From positions 1 through 20,466 of IMG/VR virus record IMGVR_UViG_3300034375_003691: a DNA stretch of 20,466 nt. One strand, 5' to 3'. Numbering within the stretch: position 1 is the stretch's first letter; each line of letters begins with the position of its first letter. The stretch is from a virus. Under the pieces are notes generated by a model. The model was given only the letters and a program-made list of their open reading frames with translations, searched no databases and had not been told where the DNA came from. Shown here piece by piece: positions 475 to 13,368 of the stretch. The position numbers and the translations under genes were made by a program.

Positions 475-1058
475 AGATAGGTTCGCTGTTTTCTGGGTAT
501 GGCGGTTTGGATATGGCGGTGTCTAATCTGCTTGATGCTGAGGTGGCGTGGCATTGTGAGTGGGCTGATGCTCCGTCTGCGATTTTGGAACACAATTTTC
601 CCGGTATAGCGAATTATCGGGATGTAAGTCAGGTCGATTGGTCGTCGGTCGAACCTGTGGACATTTTGACTGGGGGTTTCCCTTGTCAGGATGTCTCTTT
701 GGGCGGTCGGCGTGCTGGGCTTATGGCTGGCACTCGGTCTGGTTTGTGGTCGGAGTTCGCTAAGGCTATTAGCGTTCTAAAACCACGTTTGGTGATTATT
801 GAGAATGTGAGGGGACTACTCAGTGCAAGAGCCGGTAGCGATTTGGAACATTGTCCGTGGTGTATGGGAGAGACCGACAGCGAGCAACCTGTTTTGCGAG
901 CACTCGGAGCTGTTCTCGGAGACTTGGCCGACCTCGGGTACGATGCTCGATGGAAGGGCGTACTCGCCTCTGATGCTGGAGCTCCCCACAGAAGGTTCCG
1001 TGTTTTTATCACGGCCTATCCCAGAGGAGAGTCTGTTCAGAACGCCATCCGCATCTGA
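471..1058 (+). CDS. DNA cytosine-C5 methyltransferase, N-terminal catalytic part (motifs I-VIII)
   Basis: This 195-residue protein carries the cofactor-binding and catalytic half of a C5 cytosine methyltransferase. Motif I (FSGYGGLDM, residues 7-15) binds S-adenosylmethionine. Motif IV (GGFPCQDVS, 68-76) holds the catalytic cysteine C72. Motif VI (ENVRG, 111-115) and motif VIII (HRRFRVF, 173-179) are also intact. The protein then ends at 195 residues, without the target-recognition region or motifs IX and X; a complete enzyme is usually over 300 residues. The missing part is encoded in the +1 frame by the gene at 823-1692. The GTG start overlaps the small terminase stop. Methylation may protect phage DNA from host restriction. 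Whether this half acts with a separate partner or by frameshifting cannot be told from sequence alone. Confidence 0.88.
   Translation: MKIGSLFSGYGGLDMAVSNLLDAEVAWHCEWADAPSAILEHNFPGIANYRDVSQVDWSSVEPVDILTGGFPCQDVSLGGRRAGLMAGTRSGLWSEFAKAISVLKPRLVIIENVRGLLSARAGSDLEHCPWCMGETDSEQPVLRALGAVLGDLADLGYDARWKGVLASDAGAPHRRFRVFITAYPRGESVQNAIRI
809..814 (+). promoter_or_regulatory. internal ribosome binding site (GAGGGG) for the second methyltransferase frame
   Basis: GAGGGG lies 8-10 bases before the GTG at 823 and sits inside the motif VI codons (Val-Arg-Gly) of the first methyltransferase frame. It favours separate initiation of the downstream polypeptide over frameshifting. It could be coincidental, because the conserved codons GTG AGG GGA would create it anyway. 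Confidence 0.45.
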
Positions 1059-1692
1059 GGGCGCTGGTGGTGCCATGGCTGAGAAGAAAACTCGTGCCAG
1101 GAATCATCAGGTGATGGTGCGTGATCAGATTGCTCAGTTGGCGCACATGAATGGTTTGAAAGTGACCAAGAGTGTTCAGGAGTCTTTGTTCCCAACACCG
1201 AACACAATGGACCACTTGCCTGCTCGTGACGAGAGCAAGATTGATCGGAGCAAGGGTGGTTATGCGAACGTGCGCGAAACAGTGGTACGGGAACTTGTAC
1301 CGAAAAAGCGTGAGGCTGTTTTACCGACACCTTTGGCTACTGATTCGTATAACGACAATATGAAGTCGTCGCAAACTTCTGAAGGGTCTATGCACTCGGT
1401 TTCTTTGTCTCGCTTGGTGCATAAAACAGATATTGATTGGGGTCGCTTCACTGAGGCGATCGAGCGGTGGGAAAATGTTATAGGGCGTTCTGCGCCTAAC
1501 CCGACTAAGCCAGATGGCAAGGAGGAGACTCACCGGCTTTCGTCATCGTTCACAGAATGGATGATGGGTTTGCCGGAAGGTTTCATCACTGGTGCTGATG
1601 TTGGGCGTAAGGAGGAGCTTCGCGCTTGCGGGAATGGTGTTGTTCCGCAGCAGGCGGAGTTGGCTTTGAGGGAACTGTTGGAGCTTGAATGA
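823..1692 (+). CDS. DNA cytosine-C5 methyltransferase, C-terminal part (target recognition region, motifs IX-X), overlapping frame
   Basis: This 289-residue protein completes the methyltransferase. Residues 239-253 (RLSSSF then EWMMGLPEGF) match the motif IX region of phage C5 enzymes, and residues 262-279 (RKEELR, then GNGVVPQQ) match motif X. The middle, with LFRTP, LFPTP and VLPTP blocks, looks like a variable target-recognition region. It shares 236 bases (823-1058) with the N-terminal gene, in the +1 frame. In that overlap this frame also reads like phage methyltransferase text (TWPTSGTM, GRAY and ELPTEGS at residues 34-59). I chose the GTG at 823 because GAGGGG precedes it; an ATG at 1075, after the first gene ends, is the conservative alternative. 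The stop overlaps the large terminase start as ATGA. M.AquI and M.EcoHK31I are known two-polypeptide C5 enzymes. Confidence 0.75.
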   Translation: MQEPVAIWNIVRGVWERPTASNLFCEHSELFSETWPTSGTMLDGRAYSPLMLELPTEGSVFLSRPIPEESLFRTPSASEGAGGAMAEKKTRARNHQVMVRDQIAQLAHMNGLKVTKSVQESLFPTPNTMDHLPARDESKIDRSKGGYANVRETVVRELVPKKREAVLPTPLATDSYNDNMKSSQTSEGSMHSVSLSRLVHKTDIDWGRFTEAIERWENVIGRSAPNPTKPDGKEETHRLSSSFTEWMMGLPEGFITGADVGRKEELRACGNGVVPQQAELALRELLELE

Positions 1693-3200
1693 CTAAACCG
1701 GCGTGGTTGACGCCCGTACCGCCCGAAGCTGTCGAGCGCGGTGACGGTGATTTCATCTGCCGGTTTTCTGACGCCTTTGCCACGATTACAAAAGACTCAG
1801 TTGCGGGTGCGTCGGGTTCGCCACTTGTGTTGCGTGATTGGCAACGTACGCTCATGGGTTACTTGTTCGCCAAGGATGAGGATGGGCAACTCCGTCACCG
1901 CGTCTCCCTGGTGGGTCAGCCGAGAAAGAATGGTAAAACTTCGTTGGCTTCTGTCATTGCCTCTTTTGCGCTAATGGATGTGAAAACTCAGGGTGCAGAG
2001 ATTTACTCGGTAGCTGCCGACCGTAACCAGGCGCGTCTTGTGTTTGAGGACACGAAACGTATGATCGCTAACTCGGAGCTCAATGAGCACGTCAAGATTT
2101 ACCGCGACCACATTCTCGTACCTGCCACAAACAATGTTTACCGTGTACTGTCCGCTGACGCACCACGACACGAAGGTCTGTCACCAACACTCGTTATCTT
2201 TGACGAGCTTCACGCCCAGCCGAACCGTAACTTGTTCGATGTTATGTCGTTGGCTCAGGGTGCACGTGGAAAAATGGCGACTTTGATAGCGATTACGACC
2301 GCTGGTGTGAAAACTGATACCACCGGGCGTGACTCGATCGCTTACAGCCTTTACAACTATGGTCGCAAGATATGTAAAGGCGAATATGAGGACGAAACTT
2401 TCTTTATGGCCTGGTGGGAGGCACCTGCGGAGGCTGATCACCGCTTAGAGGACACTTGGAGGTCCGCAAACCCGGGTTTTGATGACATTGTGGCTGCTAG
2501 TGACTTTGAATCGGCGGTAAAACGTACACCCGAAGCTGAATTTCGCACAAAACGGTGCAATCAGTGGGTTTCTAGCCAACAGGCATGGCTTCCGACCGGT
2601 TCTTGGGACAAATTAGCGGAAGAATTCGACATTTCCGAGGACGATGACTATGTTTTGGGCTTTGACGGGTCTTACGCGAACGACAGCACCGCAATTTGCG
2701 CTGTAACTCTCCCAAAAGACGGCGAAAAGCCAAAAGTGAAGCTTGTGAAGGTCTGGGAGAAGGATTTTGAGCAAGATGATGACACTTGGCGCGTAAATAT
2801 CGAAGATGTGAAGCAAACAATCATCGATTTTGTCCAAAAGTACCCTCAGTGTCGCGAAATCGCGTGTGACCCGTACCGTTGGGCGTCAATGATGCAAGAT
2901 TTGGACGAAATGGACTTCCCAATCGTCGAATACAAGACAAATTTGCTCAATTTGATGATTCCAGCGACTCAAAAGGTGTTTGAGGCGGTCACTGAAGAGC
3001 GTTTAGTGCATGATGGCAACCCTGTGCTGTCACGCCACATAGATAACTGTGTTATCAAGATGGATCACCGTGGTCAGAGGGTTACGAAGGAGTCATCGGC
3101 GTCAAGGAAGAAGATTGACGCTGCGATAGCCTTCATTATCGCCTACGATCGTGCAACAGCAAGTAGAATAGATGAGGGAGTGCCGGAGTTTTTCTTCTAA
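1689..3200 (+). CDS. terL: terminase large subunit (packaging ATPase and nuclease)
   Basis: This 503-residue motor pumps DNA into the prohead and cuts it. The ATPase half shows a Walker A-like loop (GQPRKNGKTS, residues 76-85), a Walker B strand ending in acidic residues (LVIFDE, 168-173) and a coupling-type TTAG (203-206). The C-terminal RNase H-like nuclease shows the expected acidic residues: D326 (GFDGS), D393 (ACDPYRW) and D477 (KKIDAAIAF). The length is normal for Terminase_1-type large subunits. It starts at an ATG overlapping the methyltransferase stop and lies two genes after the small terminase, so the methyltransferase interrupts the usual terS-terL pair. A small hydrophobic gene and the portal follow. 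Confidence 0.96.
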   Translation: MTKPAWLTPVPPEAVERGDGDFICRFSDAFATITKDSVAGASGSPLVLRDWQRTLMGYLFAKDEDGQLRHRVSLVGQPRKNGKTSLASVIASFALMDVKTQGAEIYSVAADRNQARLVFEDTKRMIANSELNEHVKIYRDHILVPATNNVYRVLSADAPRHEGLSPTLVIFDELHAQPNRNLFDVMSLAQGARGKMATLIAITTAGVKTDTTGRDSIAYSLYNYGRKICKGEYEDETFFMAWWEAPAEADHRLEDTWRSANPGFDDIVAASDFESAVKRTPEAEFRTKRCNQWVSSQQAWLPTGSWDKLAEEFDISEDDDYVLGFDGSYANDSTAICAVTLPKDGEKPKVKLVKVWEKDFEQDDDTWRVNIEDVKQTIIDFVQKYPQCREIACDPYRWASMMQDLDEMDFPIVEYKTNLLNLMIPATQKVFEAVTEERLVHDGNPVLSRHIDNCVIKMDHRGQRVTKESSASRKKIDAAIAFIIAYDRATASRIDEGVPEFFF

Positions 3201-8183: not shown

Positions 8184-9404
8184 ATGGGAAAAAGTGGGAA
8201 TCCGATTGCTAAGCAACAACTGTCTGGCGCTGTAGGGGTTTGGTCTAACTCTTACGACGCACCTACTGGCTACGGTCAGCAAGTGAAGTACATGATTGAC
8301 CGTTTGAAACGTCACGGTCTGGATGTGGCAAACTTCTCTAACTTTGGTCTTGAGGGCAAGATCGATACGATTCAGACACCGCATGGACCGGTGAAGCATT
8401 TTCCGCGTAGCTTTGGTCATGGTTACTCGATGGATGTTCTTGTACCTGACTTTATGACCTGGGCGAACTCGACTGGTAAGAAAGATGTCCTGTTCACGCT
8501 GTATGACGTGTGGGTTTTGGATTCACCGCATTTGGAGAAGATGCGTCAGATTTGGTCCTGGACGCCTCTTGATCACATAACGATGCCACCGAAGGTGAAA
8601 GAGTGGTTGGTGAAACCGAATGTGTTGCCGATTGCAATGTCACCATTTGGTCAGCGGGAAATGCAAAACCATGAAATAGAGCATGCTTATGTTCCGCACG
8701 GTATTGACACGAAGGTACTCCGTCCGAGCTATAACCTGACTAACGGGATGGATGTTCGCGATTATTGGAAGAGTCGTGACAGTTTCATTGTTGGGATGGT
8801 TGCTGCTAACAAAGCGTCCGGTCTGATTCACAGGAAAGCGTTTAGCGAGAATCTGACAGCGTTTAGCATTTTCCACAAGAAGCACCCGGACACAAAACTG
8901 TATTTGCACACGGATGCGACAGGATCGGGTATTGGTTGGAATTTGCTGGAGCTCCTGAAGGCTTTGGATGTGCCAGCGGAAAGCATTTTGCTTGTCAACC
9001 CGCTTGAGTATCGTTATGGGTCGCCACAGGCAGACTTGGCTGCTTATTACAGCGCCATGGATGTTTTGTTAGCGCCTAGCATGGGTGAGGGTTTTGGTGT
9101 GCCGACTATTGAGGCGCAAGCGTGTGGAACGAGAGCGATTGCCTCTAGTTGGGCCGCTTCGCAAGATTTAGTTGCCGAGGATGGTTGGCTTGTGGATGGT
9201 GTGCCTTTGTGGGATGCCGGTCAGAGCTCTTGGTGGCAGACCCCGAAGATTCCGTCGATCGTGGATGCTTTGGAGGACGCTTACCAGCAAGGCAAGGGCG
9301 AGTCGAAGGTGGCTCGGGAGTTTGCTTTGCAGTTTGATGTGGAGACTGTGTGGCGCGATTACTGGATGCCGTTGCTGAGGGGTGAGTTTAGTGAAACGTC
9401 TTGA
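8184..9404 (+). CDS. glycosyltransferase, GT-B fold (GT4-like)
   Basis: This 406-residue protein probably moves a sugar from a nucleotide donor to an acceptor. The C-terminal half carries the donor-binding signature of GT4-type enzymes: the E-x7-E motif with E302 and E310 (EGFGVPTIE), followed by AQACGTRAIAS. SPFGQREM (about 153-160) and the HGIDTKVLRP segment (about 172-181) match the family's first-domain end and linker. The N-terminus has the GYGQQVKYMIDRL block seen in family 4 enzymes. It is cytoplasmic, with no signal or membrane segment. It is the first gene of a three-gene cassette between capsid and connector. Related enzymes in actinobacteriophages have been linked to glycosylation of virion proteins, so capsid or tail proteins are likely acceptors, which is an inference. 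Confidence 0.88.
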   Translation: MGKSGNPIAKQQLSGAVGVWSNSYDAPTGYGQQVKYMIDRLKRHGLDVANFSNFGLEGKIDTIQTPHGPVKHFPRSFGHGYSMDVLVPDFMTWANSTGKKDVLFTLYDVWVLDSPHLEKMRQIWSWTPLDHITMPPKVKEWLVKPNVLPIAMSPFGQREMQNHEIEHAYVPHGIDTKVLRPSYNLTNGMDVRDYWKSRDSFIVGMVAANKASGLIHRKAFSENLTAFSIFHKKHPDTKLYLHTDATGSGIGWNLLELLKALDVPAESILLVNPLEYRYGSPQADLAAYYSAMDVLLAPSMGEGFGVPTIEAQACGTRAIASSWAASQDLVAEDGWLVDGVPLWDAGQSSWWQTPKIPSIVDALEDAYQQGKGESKVAREFALQFDVETVWRDYWMPLLRGEFSETS

Positions 9405-10050
9405 CACGCTGAAGGATAAGCACTCGGGTTCTACTATCTGGGTGTTCGGTTCTGGTGCGTCAGTAGGGTATCTGTCGCCTCGGTTCTTTGATGACAAGAT
9501 ATGTGTCGCAACGAATCTCATCGCCGATTACTTTGACCTTCGCGCATACTATTTGTTCACTCATTACCACTACTGTGTGTTGCAAAATTTAGCTAACCCT
9601 GGAATGTTGGCTGCTGTGACACATGACGTGTGTTCTTCGCGTTGGCACCCAAATCCGGGGTCTATCCCCGGTGAGGGGTGTGTGCAGAACGAGTCGAGGC
9701 TTATCTATAACACTTTGACTGACCCAACACCGAAGGGTGACGGTTTCGATCCGTACAAGCACGCCAAGAAGGATGAGATTGTGTTTGGCTCATCGTCGAT
9801 TCACGGGTCAATGCACTTGGCTGCGTGGATGGGTGCAAGCAACATTGTGTTGGTGGGTGCTGATTGTGGAAGCATTGATGGTGAGCATCGTGTGGACGAG
9901 TATCCTCCTGGTCATCAGCCGTGGGATTTGTATAACCGTCATTTGATGCGGATGAAGGCTTGGCTGAAAGAGAACTACTCGGTTGAGGTGTATTCGTTGA
10001 ACCCGTTTGTCAATTTCAATCTTGAGGGTCACAAGTTTCAGGGCGTGTGA
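9391..10050 (+). CDS. DUF115/MptE-like putative sugar-metabolism enzyme
   Basis: I do not recognise this 219-residue protein with certainty. It opens with a Rossmann-like IWVFGSGASVGYL strand-loop-helix (residues 16-28), continues with CVATNLIADYF (38-48) and YYLFTHYHY (53-61), and has a second half with SSIHGSMHLAAWMGA (135-149) then NIVLVGADC (151-159). This pattern (GxGxS loop, a late S-x5-A helix, then a GADC strand) resembles DUF115/MptE-like proteins and some GT42-type sialyltransferases, which act in glycan pathways. The GTG at 9391 is preferred because GAGGGG (9377-9382) lies eight bases upstream; GTG 9382 has no spaced ribosome site. It overlaps the GT-B gene by 14 bases and the GT-A gene by one, so it is co-translated with two glycosyltransferases. 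Confidence 0.6.
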   Translation: MKRLDTLKDKHSGSTIWVFGSGASVGYLSPRFFDDKICVATNLIADYFDLRAYYLFTHYHYCVLQNLANPGMLAAVTHDVCSSRWHPNPGSIPGEGCVQNESRLIYNTLTDPTPKGDGFDPYKHAKKDEIVFGSSSIHGSMHLAAWMGASNIVLVGADCGSIDGEHRVDEYPPGHQPWDLYNRHLMRMKAWLKENYSVEVYSLNPFVNFNLEGHKFQGV

Positions 10051-10703
10051 TGTTACCTAACCTGATTGTCCCGGTGTTGAATCGGTATGACTTGTTGCGT
10101 CGCATGTTGGCAAGTATCAATTTTCCGATACGCGATCTTCTCATTATTGATAATGGTGGCGAGTTCTACGATGTTCTACATTCTGAATACATTGACAACA
10201 TTCGTATTTTGAACATACCAGCGAATCTGGGGGTGGGTGGCTCTTGGAATCTTGGTATTAAGTCGTTTCCGAACGATGACCGGTGGTTTTTTGCCTCTAA
10301 TGACATGGTTTTCTTACCAGGTGCTTATGAGAGCCTCTGTGAGGCTCGTAGAGACGAGATAACGCTTTCCGATATGTTTCCTCATTGGCACACGTTTTCT
10401 CTCGGTGATGAGGCTGTCAGCCGTATAGGTTTGTTCGATGAGTGCGGTTTCTTCCCCGCTTACTTTGAGGATAACGATTACATGCGTCGCGCCGAGTATT
10501 GTGACGTGACGGTTAGGCGAATCAATATCCCGACCGAGCATGACAACTCTTCGACTATTCGTAGTGATGCTCGTTACAACGCCATGAATGATCAGTCATT
10601 CCGTCGCAACTCCGCATATTTTCACGACAAAGTAGCGAGACAGGATTACAGCGCCGGTCAATGGTCTTTGGATGTTCGTCGCTTAAACGACTGGGGTAAG
10701 TGA
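10050..10703 (+). CDS. glycosyltransferase, GT-A fold (GT2-like)
   Basis: This 217-residue protein shows GT-A features: an N-terminal IVPVLNRYDLLRRML segment (6-20), the LLIIDNGG strand (30-37) typical of family 2 nucleotide-sugar binding, ANLGVGGSWNLGI (58-70), and a DxD-like SNDM (83-86) after a WFF strand. FEDNDYMRRA (139-148) matches the conserved acidic acceptor-side motif of this family. The ATG at 10050 is preferred (AGGG six bases upstream, TGATG overlap); a GTG at 10047 would add one residue. At 217 residues it is shorter than many GT2 enzymes, suggesting a minimal catalytic domain. It closes the glycosylation cassette, and a promoter-like TAGACT follows its stop. Confidence 0.85.
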   Translation: MLPNLIVPVLNRYDLLRRMLASINFPIRDLLIIDNGGEFYDVLHSEYIDNIRILNIPANLGVGGSWNLGIKSFPNDDRWFFASNDMVFLPGAYESLCEARRDEITLSDMFPHWHTFSLGDEAVSRIGLFDECGFFPAYFEDNDYMRRAEYCDVTVRRINIPTEHDNSSTIRSDARYNAMNDQSFRRNSAYFHDKVARQDYSAGQWSLDVRRLNDWGK

Positions 10704-12424: not shown

Positions 12425-12573
12425 CTGGGTTGGGCGATAGCTCAGCACACTGGTATATCGCTGGTCTAGCTGTGGAGACTGGGATTAGTCCTAGAGAGTT
12501 GATGCAGTTGGAGGATCGCATGCTATGGACCATGCAAAGATGGTTGATAGCAAAGAATCTTCCGAGATCATAG
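12173..12573 (+). CDS. tail assembly chaperone, -1 frameshifted long form (gpGT analogue)
   Basis: Slipping -1 on CCCAAAA (12415-12421) joins the 83-residue chaperone to 50 more residues read from 12421 to the TAG at 12571-12573, giving 133 residues. The extension (AHWYIAGLAVETGISPREL at about 92-110, then LEDRMLWTMQRWL) is strongly like the T-domain of phage gpGT proteins, and it has no start codon or ribosome site of its own. In lambda and many siphoviruses the ratio of G to GT is set by such a slip. A weak six-base stem, GCGATA (12434-12439) with TATCGC (12456-12461), lies 12 bases after the site and might stimulate it. The extension is shorter than 60 codons and easily missed. Confidence 0.85.
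12415..12421 (+). promoter_or_regulatory. -1 ribosomal frameshift site CCCAAAA
   Basis: The heptamer fits X-XXY-YYZ in the zero frame (C CCA AAA) and abuts the TAA stop. After slipping, both tRNAs re-pair, and the -1 frame stays open for 50 codons. Confidence 0.85.
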
Positions 12574-12576
12574 GAG

Positions 12577-12599
12577 AACCGCCCCCGAGTGGGGCGGTT
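12577..12599 (+). terminator. rho-independent terminator after the chaperone genes
   Basis: A perfect nine-base stem, AACCGCCCC (12577-12585) with GGGGCGGTT (12591-12599), has a five-base CGAGT loop and runs into TTTCT. It begins four bases after the frameshifted stop. Confidence 0.88.
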
Positions 12600-12609
12600 T
12601 TTCTATCGG

Positions 12610-12615
12610 TAGAAT
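12610..12615 (+). promoter_or_regulatory. possible promoter -10 box (TAGAAT) for the tape measure operon
   Basis: TAGAAT in the context CGGTAGAATAG follows the terminator by ten bases, as at 6864. Transcription would begin roughly 20 bases before the ATG at 12640. No clear -35 is seen, and no strong ribosome site precedes that ATG (GGCGG near 12629-12633 is the best). Confidence 0.4.
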
Positions 12616-12639
12616 AGTAGAGACGATCGGCGGTGTGTA

Positions 12640-13368
12640 ATGGTATCTCTTTCTGAGCCAGCGTTTCAGTTGGCGAAGGTGAATGCTGCCAACCGTTTCG
12701 CGGCCAGTCGGGGTCCGGGCACGTCTGAGATTGTGTTGTCTGATTACCGTGACATGTTGCGTGAAATCAATAAGCTTGATCGTGAGATTTGGAAAGACTT
12801 TACTCGGAACGCTCGTGAGATTGCTGCACCTGCTCGGCTTGGTATCAAGAAGAGCATTGACCGGATGGGTGTTGTTCTGCGGGGTTCTGCACGGTATGGC
12901 TACCGGTACGGTATGCAACCTGCTCGCATTCCGGGTCGTTTGACGTACAACACGGGGCGTAAAGCTAATCAGGTGTTGTTCAATATGCCGAAGAGTTTTG
13001 GTGGAGCTCGTAGATTCGGTCAGGGCGAGGCTGTGCCGATTGCTCGTCTCATTGTGCGTTCTCCTGCGACGATTATTCAGGACATGGCGGGGCGTAAGGG
13101 AACCTATATTGATACTCGATCCCGCACTCTTCCGTACCCGTACACAGTGAACACGAAAGATGGACCGAAAGAGATTCTGCGTTCTCACGCCATCAATGGT
13201 CAGGGACGACACATGGTTGACAAATTGAATAAGTACCGTGGTGCTTCTCGTGCCGTGTACCCGGCTGCTGAGCAACACATGGATGAGGTACAGGACAAGA
13301 TCGAAGGCGTTTTGATTGTTACACAGGTGCGCGTACAAGACGCGCTTGATCAGATTGCGAGACTGTAA
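12640..13368 (+). CDS. HK97 gp10-like tail completion or neck protein (tentative)
   Basis: This 242-residue basic protein has a helical N-terminal part (DYRDMLREINKLDREIWKDF, about 36-55, then NAREIAAPARLGIKKSI) that resembles HK97 gp10-like tail completion proteins. A middle part rich in Gly, Arg and Tyr follows (GSARYGYRYGMQPARIPGR, about 85-103), then a C-terminal helix (HMDEVQDKIEGVLIV). Such genes normally lie between connector and major tail protein; here the gene is after the chaperones and before the tape measure. It is longer than typical gp10-like proteins, so an extra domain or another minor capsid/tail role is possible. Its stop overlaps the tape measure start as TAATG. A large antisense reading frame over it is probably a shadow. 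Confidence 0.5.
   Translation: MVSLSEPAFQLAKVNAANRFAASRGPGTSEIVLSDYRDMLREINKLDREIWKDFTRNAREIAAPARLGIKKSIDRMGVVLRGSARYGYRYGMQPARIPGRLTYNTGRKANQVLFNMPKSFGGARRFGQGEAVPIARLIVRSPATIIQDMAGRKGTYIDTRSRTLPYPYTVNTKDGPKEILRSHAINGQGRHMVDKLNKYRGASRAVYPAAEQHMDEVQDKIEGVLIVTQVRVQDALDQIARL

Follow-up and report, generated by a model that had tools for sequence, protein, structure and literature searches.

The window analysed here is the whole 20,466-base stretch of DNA of the virus record IMGVR_UViG_3300034375_003691, and the element under study is a pair of overlapping methyltransferase open reading frames (ORFs) on its plus strand. The first, alpha (471–1058, 195 amino acids), encodes the N-terminal half of a cytosine-C5 DNA methyltransferase (C5-MTase) with motifs I–VIII. 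The second, beta (823–1692, 289 amino acids), begins with GTG and lies in the +1 frame relative to alpha, so that the 236 bases from 823 to 1058 on the plus strand are read by both frames. A preliminary description of the sequence had noted that both frames of this segment are open and carry methyltransferase-like text, and the words that it quoted are indeed present in both: frame 3 (alpha) reads DLADLGYDARW...APHRRFRVF and, over the same bases, frame 1 (beta) reads ETWPTSGTMLDGRAY...LELPTEGS. The pair stands in a tight run between the genes for the terminase small subunit (40–474) and the terminase large subunit (1689–3200), with four-base start-stop overlaps on each side (471–474 and 1689–1692).

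Alpha matched PF00145 (E=3e-32, profile positions 1–165 of 324), TIGR00675 (104.9 bits, cut-off 100.65) and PHROG 363, and its best solved relative was M.HhaI. The features that define the catalytic half of a C5-MTase were all found in this frame, namely motif I, a PCQ with the catalytic cysteine at 681–689 (plus strand) and an ENV at 801–809 (plus strand), which we take to be motifs IV and VI respectively, and motif VIII, APHRRFRVF, at 981–1007 (plus strand) within the overlap. Alpha ends 15 codons beyond its motif VIII profile match, which places the break between VIII and IX. It carries motifs I–VIII only, the words for motifs IX and X being found in beta only.

Beta matched PHROG 1008, 'DNA methyltransferase', over residues 2–287 (E=3.2e-48), and PHROG 363 and PHROG 116 extend into its C-terminus (E 0.00068 and 5.4e-6 respectively). 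Its layout consists of the overlap-coded N-terminus, a variable middle resembling a target-recognition domain (TRD), and motif IX- and X-like words. In the +1 frame, the word WPTSGTMLDGRA (925–960, plus strand) lies opposite ADLGYDARWKG of alpha. Further downstream on the same strand, the alignment of betas gives the stretch RLSSSFTEWMMGLPEGF (1534–1584), which we take to be motif IX-like from the usual C5-MTase patterns, and the motif X-like GNGVVPQQA is found at 1630–1656. In this alignment, which holds 41 of 54 intact sequences, W8, N9, W15, G39 and G44 are invariant. An AlphaFold2 model of the window beta, made with the 41 sequences, had a mean predicted local distance difference test score (pLDDT) of 70.0 and a predicted template modelling score (pTM) of 0.37. 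The overlap-coded residues 1–20 were modelled confidently (pLDDT blocks of 86 and 84) with strands at 4–9 and 14–21, as were residues 41–50 (83) and 211–270 (88–94), while the middle was poor. A sequence search of the PDB with the beta profile returned two antibody chains (E 0.19 and 0.33), which were judged to be chance matches.

Likeness and selection in the second frame

The codons for ADLGYDAxW and APHRRF, when read in +1, yield PTSG- and LPTEGS-like words, as can be seen in the sequence itself. Since the frame-1 words are thus mechanically tied to alpha codons, one must first ask whether their likeness merely reflects the conservation of alpha. On that account the overlap would be fortuitous and beta would start at ATG 1075 or nearby; the public annotations of phages ByChance and Chickaboom, which place the beta start downstream, agree with it. 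We built a profile of the beta N-terminus without the window and the relatives L011 and L088, and scored with it 2000 synonymous recodings of alpha that used the window's own codons. The recoded sequences scored 37.9 bits on average (standard deviation 9.9, maximum 70.9), and hence much of the likeness in frame 1 arises passively. The actual overlap peptide scored 93.0 bits, a value reached by none of the 2000 recodings. The preliminary description had warned that the frame-1 likeness could be over-read. This caution was justified, since alpha alone accounts for about 40% of the family score; the passive shadow of alpha is real, yet it is insufficient to explain the frame-1 score. The peptide of the overlap alone also matched PHROG 1008 (E = 1.2e-6). 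The openness of the +1 frame was unremarkable when the window was considered alone (P = 0.335 by recoding).

Searched by tblastn, the beta frame matched 573 phage records, 255 of which span 80% or more of the query at a single place. The loci that were compared are the best 80 per scan and not a random draw. In the seven loci that were compared by eye first, the beta words were located over alpha VI–VIII in the +1 frame. A match to the beta N-terminus of at least 25 bits was detected in 238 of the 247 alpha-matching loci (nine were without such a match), and all 238 lay over alpha in +1. This position identifies the frame-1 words, which the preliminary description had likened to segments downstream of motif VIII in other phage enzymes, as the N-terminus of a second chain. 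The WPxSG word was found after motif VIII in 0/170 alpha frames, and homology of the beta N-terminus to post-VIII segments of single-chain enzymes was therefore rejected.

For the class counts, 44 loci without the motif VIII pattern and one without the motif VI pattern were left out; 186 were kept, of which 170 were unique. They comprise 73 split loci, in which alpha stops 6–58 codons after VIII and the beta C-terminus lies in +1, as in the window, 80 fused loci, in which the alpha frame continues and includes the C-terminus of beta, and 17 that fit neither class. The +1 frame is open across VI–VIII in 73/73 split and 78/80 fused loci, where recoding expects 14.2 and 40.7 respectively. The corresponding counts for the +2 frame are 7/73 and 27/80.

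Substitutions were then sorted according to what they change in alpha and in each of the other frames, using independent closest pairs (29 split, 34 fused); the window is one of the 73 split loci in these tests. In the split pairs, the +1 frame had a dNN/dNS of 0.63 (0.54–0.73) in the overlap against 1.01 (0.89–1.14) upstream, and alpha-synonymous changes that create a +1 stop were rare (0.059 against 0.393). The +2 frame of the same loci showed little change (1.57 against 1.73). In the fused pairs the +1 ratio was 0.67 (0.55–0.76) in the overlap and 0.84 (0.75–0.92) upstream. Alpha four-fold sites differ less in the overlap although the amino acids differ more, the differences dropping from 0.68 to 0.48 in the 70–79% identity bin of the split loci. 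When the window was compared with five relatives, alpha third-position differences amounted to 0.33–0.44 in the overlap and 0.56–0.67 upstream. In the 30 codons that follow VIII in the fused loci, alpha positions 1, 2 and 3 change at 0.371, 0.234 and 0.271. Change is thus most frequent at alpha position 1, as is typical of third positions, here those of the +1 frame, though the alpha frame runs on.

Together, these results show that both frames of the overlap are under purifying selection in the relatives. They also support the proposal of true overprinting in the preliminary description: numerous phage records contain homologues of the frame-1 peptide before residue 85, positioned over motif VIII in the +1 frame, and frame 3 shows reduced rather than normal synonymous variation there. 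A fortuitous overlap, with a beta that starts near 1075, accounts for the PTSG- and LPT-like words and for the mean score of recoded alpha. It is nevertheless very improbable in view of the excess over every recoding, the selection on the +1 frame with its suppression of stop-making synonymous changes, the conserved start and Shine-Dalgarno signals described below, and the pLDDT of about 85 predicted for the overlap-coded residues 1–20.

Start signals inside alpha codons

The alpha codons for ENVRGLLSA contain both the start of beta and the Shine-Dalgarno sequence that precedes it. The Shine-Dalgarno-like GAGGGG (809–814, plus strand) falls in the alpha codons GTG AGG GGA, which encode Val-Arg-Gly of motif VI, and has a duplex energy of -7.7 with the anti-Shine-Dalgarno string. 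The GTG start (823–825, plus strand) is made of the alpha Ser codon AGT and the next G, and it is the sole start candidate before WPTSG in the +1 frame of the window. A start codon is present at the matching place in 47/73 split and 33/80 fused loci. Where it is present, AGA or AGG encodes the Arg in 44/47 split and 28/31 fused loci; the same codons account for 1/46 in fused loci without the start and for 32/416 upstream Arg codons of fused loci. The Ser codon AGT occupies the start position, a start not being required, in 45/71 split and 33/79 fused loci, with upstream frequencies of 63/531 and 14/519 respectively.

The start and the Shine-Dalgarno sequence are the most sharply conserved features. 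This would fit a situation in which the +1 signals only serve the translation of beta and the overlap-coded N-terminus is a leader without protein function. However, purifying selection (dNN/dNS 0.63) and the five invariant residues from W8 to G44 span the whole overlap. The intact betas of the split type are 185 to 464 amino acids long, and the overlap part makes up more than one third of the 185-residue ones. We consequently see little room for a mere leader.

Programmed ribosomal frameshifting, by which alpha and beta would be fused into one chain, is in keeping with the +1 position of beta, and some in-frame X XXY YYZ heptamer occurs in the alpha overlap of 25/73 split loci. The last alpha codon, however, varies widely and was counted as +1-prone in 4/73 only. 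Moreover, a shift near the alpha stop needs no upstream +1 frame, yet the upstream part is selected and has start signals of its own, which makes frameshifting an unlikely explanation.

Least probable of all is that one enzyme gene has been disrupted by a frameshift mutation or a sequencing error: the split locus L002 and the fused locus L161 indeed share 97.9% identity over 705 bases, the difference being one G in a run of G, but the split arrangement was found in 73 unique loci, with both frames under selection, and on the alpha tree (built on few columns, with 75/143 inner branches open) the split and fused labels are clustered, requiring at least 7 changes where shuffled labels require about 50 on average (0/500 as low).

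The difference between L002 and L161 does indicate that one-base changes shift the C-terminal half between frames. Such switches through one-base changes in G runs were observed both for L002 and L161 and for L143 and L154. The LPTP-containing modules of the TRD region also differ in number and frame within these two pairs.

Other nested +1 frames and other genes of the window

A second group of loci, nearly all on actinobacterial genome contigs, has a longer VI–VIII linker and a purine-rich Shine-Dalgarno sequence followed by ATG. The search for this group gave 31 nested ORFs, 30 of 121–169 amino acids and one of 260. The actinobacterial loci L180–L220 (e.g. L215:2892–3314) show this arrangement, with a nested +1 ORF of 121–169 amino acids that has its own Shine-Dalgarno sequence and ATG inside a complete-looking C5-MTase. 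In the alignment of 29 of the 31 nested ORFs, amino-acid identity after VIII was 0.71 in the nested frame against 0.48 in the alpha frame, and 29/29 matched PHROG 1008. A stretch LFRTPLASD...RRGTIALSHQ is strongly conserved after motif VIII in the nested ORFs of L180–L220. The model of the L215 nested protein was of low confidence (pLDDT 52.8), and a match to this protein was detected in 6/296 evenly drawn Actinomycetota genomes.

In Paenibacillus phage Leyra, gp62 is nested in gp61 in the +1 frame and both are annotated; L255 (1801–2838 with 1985–2689) is an example of this type. The Leyra alpha has I–VIII and X, and it is the nested frame that contains the IX-like word. The Leyra-type set (45 viral loci and Leyra itself) contains 37 distinct alpha ORFs, and the relative frame is +1 in 37/37. 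With strict patterns, 16/37 had IX exclusively on beta and X exclusively on alpha, the other 21 not being fully matched by the patterns. Leyra-type methyltransferases (L255, L263–L307) occur on contigs of 33–69% G+C. Similar-looking nested +1 words were also seen on cyanobacterial and alphaproteobacterial plasmids (L253 and L252 respectively). Since alpha itself dictates part of the overlap words, we do not claim that all these nested proteins are homologous.

Streptococcus-type C5-MTases (L313:1501–2583, L321–L399) have a complete-looking alpha frame and were meant as a negative control. From 79 fetched loci, 55 passed the patterns and the length limit and 50 were unique. A +1 ORF across IV–VIII was open in 50/50 (8.0 expected), and its dNN/dNS was 0.40 in VI–VIII and 0.82 upstream; the intended control thus came out as selected. 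This ORF has a conserved ending like SDILEE...YFLS, and a similar ending is present in the +1 frame of Enterobacter L250. For ordinary C5 genes, openness alone was counted, in eight members of a single family and one plasmid gene; the +1 frame was open in 1/9 with 0.84 expected.

Elsewhere in the window, glycosyltransferase-like genes are found at 8184–9404 and 10047–10703 with an MptE-like ORF (9382–10050) in between. This block (8184–10703) sits between capsid and head-tail connector genes. A 256-residue open frame on the minus strand (12568–13338) lies opposite a plus-strand ORF of 242 amino acids (12640–13368).

Proposed enzyme and comparison with known systems

We estimate at roughly 80% the probability that 823–1058 is truly overprinted and that alpha and beta form one split, M.AquI-like C5-MTase whose beta chain is started at GTG 823. 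A single messenger RNA would carry both ORFs. Ribosomes would translate alpha from 471, and beta would be initiated independently at GTG 823 via the Shine-Dalgarno sequence embedded in the motif VI codons of alpha. Alpha would contribute the S-adenosylmethionine-binding cofactor site and the catalytic cysteine (I–VIII), and beta an N-terminal hairpin region, the TRD-like recognition part and motifs IX and X. Both chains would then assemble into one heterodimeric cytosine-C5 methyltransferase that marks phage DNA. Translation of both chains in vivo, their assembly, methylation at a target site and a protective role are inferred from sequence comparison.

Several results weigh against this scheme. 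Split loci without a start at the matching place also favour AGA/AGG (18/26; the split background is 131/360). The window beta had no match in Pfam or NCBIfam, and a Pfam match was obtained for 1/41 relatives only (E 0.00052). Foldseek with the beta model returned 24 matches, all of them C5-MTase chains and none significant (best E 3.6), and VIA-align gave Z of at most 2.8, mainly over residues 208–289, with no significant structural match; a fold assignment of beta was dropped on these grounds. Finally, the Streptococcus-type alpha frame has all motifs together with a selected +1 frame, and the +1 product need therefore not always be a missing enzyme half.

A wider proposal, to which we give even odds, is that the +1 overprint across VI–VIII is a regular trait across much of the phage C5-MTase world. 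The second frame would encode a target-recognition or assembly subunit, motifs IX and X would have moved between frames to give split, fused-with-nested and M.EcoHK31I-like forms, and a selected nested protein would be concealed in some complete-looking single-chain enzymes, such as the Streptococcus type. Should target recognition be the task of the nested frame, specificity and catalysis would be encoded atop one another and passed on as a single unit. There are few long overprinted genes on the same strand in bacteria and phages, and these are often contested; the 73 split and 80 fused unique loci make up a large natural series in a known enzyme class, with start signals that can be followed at the codon level.

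Public annotation treats these loci unevenly. Both ORFs are present in the records of phages ArV1 and Leyra, beta begins 115 codons (ByChance) and 93 codons (Chickaboom) after the candidate start, and a 23-base overlap is annotated in Dorothy. Jinkies has beta only, and MidnightRain, prophiT49-1 and MelBins have one long coding sequence. Annotated phage methylases may thus be missing their partner subunit or have it in truncated form, and assays of a single annotated gene could falsely show no activity as a result.

The small gene of M.EcoHK31I is nested in the large gene in another frame. In this two-polypeptide C5-MTase (YGGCCR), as described in the accessible part of PMC3404938, the smaller chain holds IX and the large one has X and a predicted TRD too. 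The window differs in this respect: X is on the large chain of M.EcoHK31I, whereas the window alpha ends after VIII and the IX- and X-like words are both in beta. Leyra-type relatives place IX and X as M.EcoHK31I does, but not the TRD as it is described for that enzyme in the same part of PMC3404938. Leyra gp61/gp62 resembles the window in its overlapping +1 methyltransferase ORFs and differs in that beta is wholly nested and alpha keeps X. The 067a/067b pair of Arthrobacter phage ArV1 likewise has overlapping +1 methyltransferase ORFs and is similar to the window, its overlap being 266 bases. We found no paper on the Leyra or the ArV1 pair; PMC6070908, as far as its text was available, covers Leyra-type phages. 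A hidden HNH endonuclease, out of frame inside an actinophage methylase gene, is reported for the ShiLan type in the available part of PMC11855218. That case is a mobile insertion with a nuclease, whereas the second frame of the window runs over the conserved catalytic core with no insertion.

Two-subunit C5-MTases are already known, but the conserved overprint is apparently unreported: a literature search limited to openly licensed papers found no report of a conserved +1 overprint over VI–VIII across phages and genomes. A 236-base overprint over motif VIII is not known for M.AquI. According to PMC3404938, the larger subunit of this two-polypeptide C5-MTase (CYCGRG) carries I–VIII and the smaller one IX–X, and the variable region is shared between both subunits, unlike in the window. 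Fragment complementation is documented for C5-MTases split between VIII and the TRD in the accessible parts of PMC3404938 and PMC5944983. The position of the break in the window is that of M.AquI, with motifs I–VIII on one chain and the IX- and X-like words on the other.
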